Of a stretch of DNA of 64,000 bases, positions 3,340 to 60,253 are shown piece by piece (positions within the stretch are counted from its first letter, which is position 1; each line of letters starts with the position of its first letter). The stretch is from Allokutzneria sp. A3M-2-11 16 (GTDB taxonomy: Bacteria; Actinomycetota; Actinomycetes; Mycobacteriales; Pseudonocardiaceae). The translations under genes and the position numbers were made by a program. The stretch lies in contig NZ_JANAVO010000001.1 in the NCBI RefSeq assembly GCF_024213555.1, positions 2,418,001 through 2,482,000 of the forward strand, given 5' to 3'. The notes under the pieces were generated by a model. That model was not told the origin of the DNA. It saw only the letters and a list, made by a program, of their open reading frames with translations, and did not search any database.

Positions 3340-3457
3340 GTCTTCAAGTACCCCGAACTCGCGGTGCCAGCGTCGCCAACGATGGCAAACCCCGGGTGGC
3401 CGCTGGGTGTGGTGCGGTTGAAGACGTTCTGGGTGGGGGTGGGGGGTACTTGAAGAC
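3340..3457. repeat. Palindromic repeat copy A (118 bp, both termini)
   Basis: The element is bounded by GTCTTCAAGTAC (3340-3351) and its exact reverse complement GTACTTGAAGAC (3446-3457). Its right interior is a G-rich run shared with the other copies. It lies between divergent genes starting at 3293 (minus) and 3638 (plus). A partial right half follows at 3526-3569. Other full copies are at 23319, 34431 and 60134. Confidence 0.85.
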
Positions 3458-3525
3458 GCCCCGACCCACGCTGGGCGACGCGGTGGGTGACGGCTGTGGG
3501 GCTGGGCTTGTGGTGGGGGTGGGGG

Positions 3526-3569
3526 GTGGTTTGCGACTGGTGTGGGTGGGGTTTGTGGGACTTGAAGAC
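3526..3569 (+). repeat. Partial right half of the palindromic repeat
   Basis: The stretch carries TTTGCGAC, a GGGTGGGG run and the terminus GGACTTGAAGAC (one base different from the standard terminus). These match the right arms of the copies at 23319 and 34431. No left terminus is seen. The preceding bases 3488-3526 contain several closely spaced runs of G on the plus strand, which could form a G-quadruplex. Confidence 0.65.
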
Positions 3570-3603
3570 TGTGGGACCTCGGTCCGGCCTGGCCGTTCCG
3601 CCC

Positions 3604-3638
3604 TTGGGCGGTAGCCGAAACGTCGTATTGTTTGCGGG
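3604..3638 (+). promoter_or_regulatory. Putative promoter of the first SARP gene
   Basis: TTGGGC (3604-3609) and TATTGT (3626-3631) are separated by 16 bp and end 7 bp before the GTG at 3638. There is no ribosome site in between, so a leaderless transcript starting at or next to the GTG is plausible. This rests on pattern only. Confidence 0.45.
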
Positions 3639-59157: not shown

Positions 59158-59351
59158 GAATTCGGCTCAACGGCAAGGAAACCGCGCTCGCGACCGGGAG
59201 CACGGTCGTCGATGCCCTCGCGTTGCTCGGAGCACCGGACTCCGGGGTCGCGGTCGCGGTGGACGGCGACGTGGTGCCCAGGGGGCAGTGGCAGACCGAG
59301 TTGCGCGAGGACGCGGTGGTAGAGGTTCTCACTGCGGTACAGGGAGGTTGA
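59154..59351 (+). CDS. thiS: Thiamine sulfur-carrier protein
   Basis: A 65-residue ubiquitin-like carrier ending in the required Gly-Gly (TAVQGG). It starts [12 protein letters not shown] and has the short beta-grasp pattern. The C-terminal carboxylate is adenylated and turned into a thiocarboxylate, which gives sulfur to ThiG. ATG 59154 overlaps the thiO stop (ATGA); thiG follows 5 bp after the stop. Confidence 0.94.
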
Positions 59352-59356
59352 GTGCG

Positions 59357-60121
59357 ATGTCGGATGACCAGCTGGTGATCGCGGGCCGCGAGTTCGGTTC
59401 TCGGTTGATCATGGGAACCGGGGGCGCGGGCAACCTTTCCGTGCTGGAGCGGGCTTTGGTCGCGTCGGGCACCGAGCTGACCACCGTCGCGATGCGCAGG
59501 ATGGACGCCGAAGGCGGCACCGGCGTGCTGGATTTGTTGCGACGTTTGGCGATCCAGCCGCTGCCGAACACCGCGGGCTGCCGCACCGCCGCCGAGGCCG
59601 TGCTCACCGCCAGGCTGGCCCGCGAAGCGCTCGGGACGGACTGGGTGAAGCTGGAGGTCGTCGCCGACGACGACACCCTGCTGCCCGATCCGCATGAACT
59701 GCTCGACGCGGCGGAAACCCTTGTGGTGGAAGGGTTCTCGGTGCTCCCGTACACCAACGACGATCCGGTGTTGGCGCGCAGGCTCCAGGACGCGGGCTGC
59801 GTCGCGGTGATGCCGCTGGGATCGCCGATCGGTACCGGGCTCGGCATCCGCAACCCGCACAACATCGAGCTGATCGTGTCCAGGGCGACCGTCCCGGTCA
59901 TCCTCGACGCAGGCATCGGCACCGCCTCGGATGCCGCCCTGGCCATGGAATTGGGCTGTGAAGCGGTATTGCTGGCGACCGCGGTCACCAGGGCGCAGCA
60001 CCCGGAGCTGATGGCGGCGGCGATGCGCGCGGCCGTCGAGGGCGGTCGGCTGGCCCGCCGCGCCGGACGCATCCCCCAACGCTTCTGGGCCCACGCGTCC
60101 AGCCCGCCACGCGAGCACTGA
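59357..60121 (+). CDS. thiG: Thiazole synthase
   Basis: ThiG builds the thiazole ring from deoxyxylulose-5-phosphate, ThiS thiocarboxylate and dehydroglycine. The product is 254 residues. The Schiff-base lysine is Lys98 in DWVKLEV; phosphate binding is through [14 protein letters not shown] and [18 protein letters not shown] lies 9 nt before ATG 59357. Last gene of the riboswitch-controlled operon; palindromic repeat copy F starts 12 bp after its stop and may end transcription. Confidence 0.95.
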
Positions 60122-60133
60122 CCAGGTTCCCCC

Positions 60134-60253
60134 GTCTTCAAGTACGCCCTACCCCCGCCCCAGCGATCGCTAACCACCCCCAACCTCCCGCGTGTTCTGG
60201 GGGTTTGCTGCGGTTAGCGATCGCTGGGGGTGGGGTGCGTTGTACTTGAAGAC
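60134..60253. repeat. Palindromic repeat copy F (120 bp, best preserved)
   Basis: The termini GTCTTCAAGTAC (60134-60145) and GTACTTGAAGAC (60242-60253) are perfect, and the arms stay complementary for about 42 bp with few mismatches, including AGCGATCGCTAACC and its exact complement. Between converging thiG and ion-channel genes. The stop codon and last 13 or so codons of the channel gene lie within its right arm. Confidence 0.9.

Follow-up and report, generated by a model that had tools for sequence, protein, structure and literature searches.

The closest described counterparts of the repeat reported here are REPINs, doublets of repetitive extragenic palindromic (REP) sequences that form hairpins in Pseudomonas fluorescens (PMC3116915), and miniature inverted-repeat transposable elements (MITEs), most bacterial examples of which have TA ends and target duplications in the outline given by PMC2229807. 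We analyzed a 64,000-nucleotide stretch of the 8.8-Mb genome of Allokutzneria sp. A3M-2-11 16 (contig NZ_JANAVO010000001.1, positions 2,418,001 to 2,482,000; here the window), together with genome-wide scans, for a palindromic repeat of about 120 bp with ends GTCTTCAAGTAC. The repeat probably belongs to a family of non-coding, non-autonomous mobile palindromes, MITE-like in form and organized like REPINs, that has recently expanded in this genome.

Like REPINs as outlined in PMC3116915, the repeat has conserved inverted ends, a less conserved middle (with compensatory changes that are here confined to the inner unit), and a preferred spacing, and it is dispersed as extragenic, non-autonomous units. 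It differs in that no REP-associated tyrosine transposase (RAYT) of the Y1 type was detected here, that each arm has conserved steps along its full length, that element lengths change in increments of roughly one DNA turn, and that the outer arm lacks compensation; further, single arms are as conserved as double ones, whereas REPIN singlets are less conserved in that account. The ERIC/IRU (127 bp) and RUP (107 bp) MITEs, as presented in PMC2229807, share its size, palindromic form, intergenic position, mobility, and long stem-loop, but the present repeat is GC-rich and without visible duplication, and its copies have in common mainly the conserved steps and not the intervening sequence; nor were the TA ends and target duplications of most MITEs in that source found here. 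The REP superfamilies tagged GTAG or CGTC, as far as PMC3733652 sets out their placement, likewise lie between convergent and unidirectional genes and often touch coding regions or stop codons; in contrast to these, our repeat has no GTAG/CGTC tag at its end and no detected Y1 transposase, and its unit is longer than their 20 to 40 bp. Rfam covariance models gave no match at the elements of the window, the sole match at the gathering threshold being a thiamine pyrophosphate (TPP) riboswitch, and a search of the published literature, based on titles and opening lines of abstracts, found nothing on the family. This suggests that it matches no described one, in keeping with a preliminary description of the window, which knew of no family with such ends.

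Copy number, anatomy, and spacing of the arms

The repeats are genuine and greatly exceed chance expectation. Allowing up to two mismatches, we counted 14 occurrences of GTCTTCAAGTAC in the window where 1.1 were expected, and none of 100 shuffles reached that number. The four full copies (118, 121, 119, and 120 bp) and three right-half loci of the preliminary description proved correct in position, and the family is not confined to the window: 144 perfect-ended copies (80 to 110 bp between the 12-mers) were found genome-wide, with none in a reversed-sequence control and none in the 99 relatives searched, including two congeners. An arm profile, trained on this genome's own copies (no more than one core mismatch each), located 41 arms in an unselected 464 kb around the window (scores of 36 to 84; reversed-sequence maximum, -2), arranged as 16 pairs and 9 single arms, and 174 arms above 0 in 1.26 Mb (reversed maximum, 3.6). 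Because only 3 of the 174 score below 30, half-decayed copies are few. Extrapolation gives about 570 arms and 186 inward pairs for the genome; the sample includes 800 kb picked for its known copies, where counts favor full copies.

The true unit is an arm of about 63 bp, found mostly in inward pairs and sometimes singly. Across 185 arms the conserved line reads gGTt-N5-GTCTTCAAGTAC-nnC-nA-ACCCC-spacer-GTC-kyw-AAC-nGC-nnC-nAACCCC. Core positions 1 to 9 are kept in 184 or 185 of these arms, and the other conserved steps include A at 18 (183 arms), AA at 39 and 40 (176 to 177 arms), and A at 50 (176 arms). Conservation also reaches beyond the 12-bp ends that had been taken as the limit of the element, with G at -8 in 182 arms and T at -7 in 181. 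The core is itself a dyad (GGTT-N7-CTTCAAG-N7-AACC), without clear covariation across the dyad within the arm. Lone and paired arms do not differ in conservation (median profile score of 71.7, n = 25, versus 73.1, n = 160; p = 0.32). A division into two distinct arm types for left and right ends was tried and rejected, the mixture fit being -6042 against a permuted mean of -6068 and a best of -6035 among 30 permutations.

The A/T steps, at positions 7 and 8, 18, 29 (weakly), 39 and 40, and 50, recur with a spacing of about 10.5 bp. Phased DNA-binding arrays such as those of BldC or Xis filaments sit in promoters or att sites, and the arm, which is not known to bind a protein, may resemble these in its direct repeats at one helical turn. 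The spacing between paired arms also steps by about one DNA turn. The 80 inward pairs, which form an inverted doublet of preferred spacing as REPINs do, measure 108 to 113 bp (23 pairs), 118 to 124 bp (50), 130 to 132 bp (5), 140 bp (1), and 163 bp (1), with none at 114 to 117 or 125 to 129 bp; length, which had looked conserved in the window, is genome-wide not one class but a series of steps of about 11 bp. Phase concentration peaks near 10.5 to 11 bp; at 10.5 bp, Rayleigh R is 0.64, with p of approximately 6e-15. The extra base pairs are central, between the two AACCCC ends, and the centers of the 119-bp class share no sequence. Given this stepping, docking of two protein-bound arms on the same face of the helix would fit; a hairpin loop would not need it.

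The elements of the window, with the parts of one 119-bp copy, are as follows (a strand is given for single arms and parts of arms).

3340..3457, full element of 118 bp, apparently divergent gap; profile hits for its arms at 3331-3394 (+) and 3403-3466 (-)
3515..3569, minus strand, single right arm; core GTCTTCAAGTCC on the minus strand, profile score of 65, folds to 0 kcal/mol
23319..23439, full element of 121 bp, between convergent helix-turn-helix/ricin-lectin-like (+) and BcrAD_BadFG (-) genes
34431..34549, full element of 119 bp, between tandem BPD_transp_2 permease and aldo/keto reductase genes
34431..34442, plus strand, left-arm outer core GTCTTCAAGTAC (positions 1 to 12), dyad centered at position 6
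34463..34484, plus strand, left-arm inner unit (positions 33 to 54); copies show compensatory pairing in this unit only
34485..34495, spacer of 11 bp at the center of the 119-bp class (the three main classes have 0, 11, or 22 bp here)
34496..34517, minus strand, right-arm inner unit (positions 33 to 54), compensatory pairing
34538..34549, minus strand, right-arm outer core, from the 12-mer search
40715..40769, minus strand, single right arm, profile score of 78.9, downstream of a gene of the GntR family
43172..43226, minus strand, single right arm, profile score of 36.5, one extra spacer base by eye
60134..60253, full element of 120 bp flanked by thiG and an ion-transport gene

Gene-end placement and gain relative to a sister species

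Gene calls from a custom script place 48 of the 79 pairs that have two flanking genes in convergent gaps (45-nt overlap allowed), compared with 195 of 1098 gaps overall (p = 2e-17); the unselected stretch gives 11 of 16 pairs against 58 of 328 gaps. Arms follow a sense stop codon in 133 of 174 cases, at a median of 25 bp, versus 1496 of 3451 random non-coding points. A directional gene-end signal was considered and set aside, as it is mostly explained by the convergent gaps (single arms in tandem contexts run 7 with and 4 against). In the window itself, by gene calls with Pfam domains added, three loci are convergent (23319, 43171, and 60134) and not four of seven as first counted; those at 3340 and 3526 share one apparently divergent gap, and those at 34431 and 40711 lie between tandem genes. 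The 3340 and 3526 loci are flanked by ADP-ribosylglycohydrolase and BTAD regulator genes, and the called open reading frame (ORF) of the former overlaps both repeats, its domain beginning further in. The arm at 43172-43226 sits between convergent amidohydrolase and SIS genes. Nor is every copy strictly intergenic, as had been stated, since 60134-60253 overlaps the last 40 nt of the ion-transport (PF00520) ORF at 60214-61077.

We took genome G002 as the sister species because its identity to the source genome over about 18 kb is the highest (93.4%, compared with 91.1% between the source genome and G001 and 91.2% between G001 and G002). Among 105 loci, 33 have a mapped site in G002, and the other 72, without a mapped orthologue, were left out; G002 stretches for 20 segments were placed by assumed collinearity. 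At 18 of the 33 mapped loci (17 distinct insertions), G002 has no more than 25 bp in place of the insert. These are the empty orthologous sites that the preliminary description had proposed to look for, and they give the presence/absence pattern of a non-autonomous mobile element. In the window, G002 has 3 bp where the source genome has 3340-3574, an insertion that contains both 3340-3457 and the right arm at 3515-3569; 11 bp in place of a 118-bp insert at 40715-40769, between tandem genes; and 24 bp in place of a 201-bp insert at 60134-60253, which seems to have given the ion-transport gene its new C-terminal end. The place of the 34431 element is taken in G002 by an L-rhamnose mutarotase ORF.

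All three element sites of another segment (L033) are without the element in both G002 and G001, and at one of them G001 carries an array of AATGASTCATT units instead; three gaps hold different elements in different species. Scanning about 0.78 Mb of G002 with the profile gave 3 arms above 10 bits, and 256 element-free gaps keep their size between the two genomes (median difference of 0 in each orientation class). Among 76 elements there are a few related pairs, of about 80 to 92% identity, sometimes with flanks included up to both stop codons. To judge from these alignments, the copies appear to be mobile and recently gained in the source genome, with imprecise edges. The proposal of a dispersed, non-coding, mobile repeat is thus supported by the genome-wide copies and the unoccupied sister-species sites.

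Pairing, the search for a mobilizer, and competing explanations

Agreement between the arms of the same element was compared with shuffled arms in seven position groups. Compensatory pairing was found in the inner unit, at positions 36 to 38 (0.63 versus 0.44; z = 6.2) and at positions 42, 43, 45, 46, 48, and 49 (0.68 versus 0.51; z = 8.2), with a weak excess at positions 55 to 58 (z = 2.4). There was none at positions 13, 14, 16, and 17 (z = 0.3), -5 to -1 (z = -0.7), or -20 to -10 (z = -0.9), and the outer spacer, positions 23 to 32, is less complementary than shuffled (0.36 versus 0.42; z = -3.4, P = 0.0002, in one of the seven groups). The earlier statement that the interior varies while pairing is kept therefore applies to the inner unit, at its variable positions between 36 and 49, and fails for the outer spacer. 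An inner hairpin, or correction of one arm by the other, may account for the inner pairing. The four full copies of the window fold with z of -4.3 to -12.6, and the three lone arms fold to 0, -6.1, and -7.2 kcal/mol. Selection on the whole hairpin, as had been suggested, is at odds with an outer arm without compensation and with lone arms that are as conserved yet hardly fold; for these same reasons, recognition of duplex DNA would fit better than a full-length hairpin.

The Y1 transposase domain (PF01797) gave no match in the source genome or in G001, G002, G003, G008, G010, and G181, while 5 of 14 control genomes were positive, as were G009, G014, and G170. The rve and IS110 transposases likewise had no match in the source genome, which has two DDE_Tnp_1 genes, neither with an arm within about 1.5 kb. 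A search for Y2 transposases matched no control genome, so its outcome carries no weight. Neighboring inward arms 180 to 9000 bp apart, the mark of an autonomous copy, were absent within 1.64 Mb. The transposase with matching ends that the preliminary description had envisaged was thus not found in the few families searched (Y1, DDE_Tnp_1, rve, and IS110; IS256, IS630, and ISL3 were not searched), and because no Y1 transposase was detected, membership in the REP/REPIN-RAYT system that had been suggested is not supported, though the repeat is REPIN-like in outline.

For a mobile palindrome family of this kind, we propose that a protein would coat, or dimerize on, the double-stranded arms with its contacts all on one face of the helix, and that the protein-arm complex would be what is copied or moved. 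Insertion would be more like copying or break repair than like the clean reaction of a transposase, because the insert edges vary and some inserts stand where the sister species has other sequence. Convergent gaps would dominate because insertions elsewhere have been selected out. Once in place, the hairpin may act secondarily as a bidirectional barrier to transcription.

Selection on an RNA hairpin between convergent genes, making the repeats bidirectional terminators, would explain the very stable folds of the window copies, the compensatory changes of the inner unit, and the position at gene ends. We nevertheless find it quite improbable: the outer arm is without compensation and its spacer is even less complementary than shuffled, single arms are conserved like pairs while those of the window fold weakly or not at all, and a quantized loop length is unexpected for a hairpin. 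Moreover, six terminator-like sites were scored in 22500-35500 and none lies at 23319 or 34431, the two copies scanned; neither thus scores as the GC stem plus U-tract that marks an intrinsic terminator. A different view is that the arms are binding sites that serve the host, a nucleoid or insulator protein separating convergent units, and that they spread by usefulness and not by selfishness; this overlaps with the mobile-family explanation, and the two are not exclusive. The strong bias to convergent gaps, the nearness to stop codons, the helical spacing, the conserved lone arms, and the presence of other element types in the same kind of gap all speak for such sites. We consider it rather unlikely, as 18 mapped loci keep their flanking genes without the element in the sister species, so that the function is not needed there, and few sites occur in other genomes of the family.

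Two further explanations invoke known transposases. Mobilization of a REPIN by a RAYT would draw on the shared plan of inverted conserved ends, a variable spacer with compensatory changes, and preferred distances, as PMC3116915 outlines it, and on the convergent or unidirectional gene location that PMC3733652 gives for REPs in its account of their placement; it is very improbable given that PF01797 is without a match in the source genome and the six others named above, with positive controls, and that single arms are not degraded. A classical MITE moved in trans by the DDE transposase of an insertion sequence would have the small non-coding body, terminal inverted repeats, and dispersal seen here. 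We give this little credence, since neither target duplication nor fixed ends were found, the two DDE_Tnp_1 genes have no nearby arms, and rve and IS110, among the families searched, have no match.

Several observations weigh against the mobile, duplex-recognized family that we favor. No mobilizer was found among the four transposase families searched, and a pure double-strand model does not need the inner-unit compensatory pairing. The period is not sharp (Rayleigh R of 0.61, 0.64, 0.64, and 0.60 at 10, 10.5, 11, and 11.5 bp, and 0.50 at 13 bp), and the length classes could be inherited rather than selected. Arms agree at variable positions with a mean identity of 0.40 (standard deviation, 0.088 versus 0.076 column-shuffled), a high diversity that is odd for a recent burst. 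Insert edges vary in place, in pairs from -28 to 117 bp outside the 12-mers, and no target duplication was seen by eye at the 18 loci (17 insertions) compared with G002. These 18 empty sites include two within one insertion, and of the remaining mapped loci 14 hold other sequence in G002 (at L181, an AATGASTCATT array; at 34431, the mutarotase ORF) and 1 aligns through. Judged by eye, G002 has a core-like dyad at the aligned-through site and at one other, and among the 14 at least one, L092 5772, has an arm-like match of 41 bits, so that its G002 gap is not free of the family; some loci thus have a more complex history.

Relatives, other repeats, and implications

Among 200 genomes of the same taxonomic family, a relaxed core pattern was found in 14, belonging to 7 of the 46 genera; the control gave a single hit in 200. 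Its counts are 542 in the source genome, 40 and 12 in congeners, 29 in G010, 11 in G008, 9 in G170, and 1 to 3 in eight others; some of the low counts are not elements, the matches at L085 and L086, among those listed, lying inside long ORFs. With at most 88 candidates scored per genome, a sequence profile found related arms in 7 of 60 genomes, including the source genome, and in 0 of 24 genomes from other families. In G010 the core is the near-palindrome GTTTGNNGGTCTTCAAGACCNNCAAAC, perfect in some copies; 8 of its 29 sites, at 7 loci, were inspected, and each locus has a site 18 to 28 bp after a stop codon. G170 has direct arrays with a period of about 33 bp, counted by eye. At L083, L088, and L040, in other genera, arm-like sequence stands at the 3' end of a putative short cysteine-containing peptide frame, conserved by eye.

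Other repeats were also noted. A second phased family consists of AATGAGTCATT/AATGACTCATT dyads with an exact 30-bp period and GTTCAAGTACC-like sequence between them; it shares TTCAAGTACC with the main family and is found in the same gaps (in the source genome, C11 about 2361920, L093 2542-2612, and L107 11668; likewise in G001 and G002). Exact pairs of its AATGASTCATT-array units number 65, 39, and 35 in the source genome, G001, and G002, taken as the three species of the genus, with 1 in G180 and 0 in 146 others of the family. A third, palindromic family, GTTTCGTACTC-N35-GAGTACGAAAC, has 30 copies in 1.26 Mb, e.g., at C11 about 2343563, and is 57 bp long in 29 of the 30, usually with a central GAGCGCTC; 20 of the 30 loci are in convergent gaps, and 380 kb of G002 contain no copy of its end motif. 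A fourth dyad type, CCAATGTGGCATTGG, lies in a convergent gap at C11 about 2557450, to the right of the window, and a similar motif occupies the center of one main-family element. Within the window, the TPP riboswitch lies at 57999-58108 with the thiG gene further down, and two 60-nt repeats (54325-54384 and 55773-55832), 92% identical and hairpin-like with T-rich tails, follow two related genes and are perhaps intrinsic terminators.

A further-reaching interpretation, offered as a tentative possibility, is that these repeats represent a new kind of mobile DNA, in which a protein lattice on the duplex would contact the arm once per helical turn, paired arms would dock in phase, and copies would pass imprecisely into gene-end gaps without a classical transposase, in species-specific dialects. 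The second family, with its 30-bp period, looks as though it followed that design too, and it takes similar gaps within the genus.

The usual explanation of small mobile palindromes is a hairpin of single-stranded DNA or RNA together with a Y1 or DDE transposase. In the present family, some protein would seem to recognize duplex DNA, to judge from the spacing rule, the lone arms, and the transposases sought without success. A predicted hairpin between convergent genes, even a very stable one, need not be a terminator under selection. With related arms in several genera and unoccupied sites in a sister species, the family offers a countable system for a genetic search for the mobilizer.
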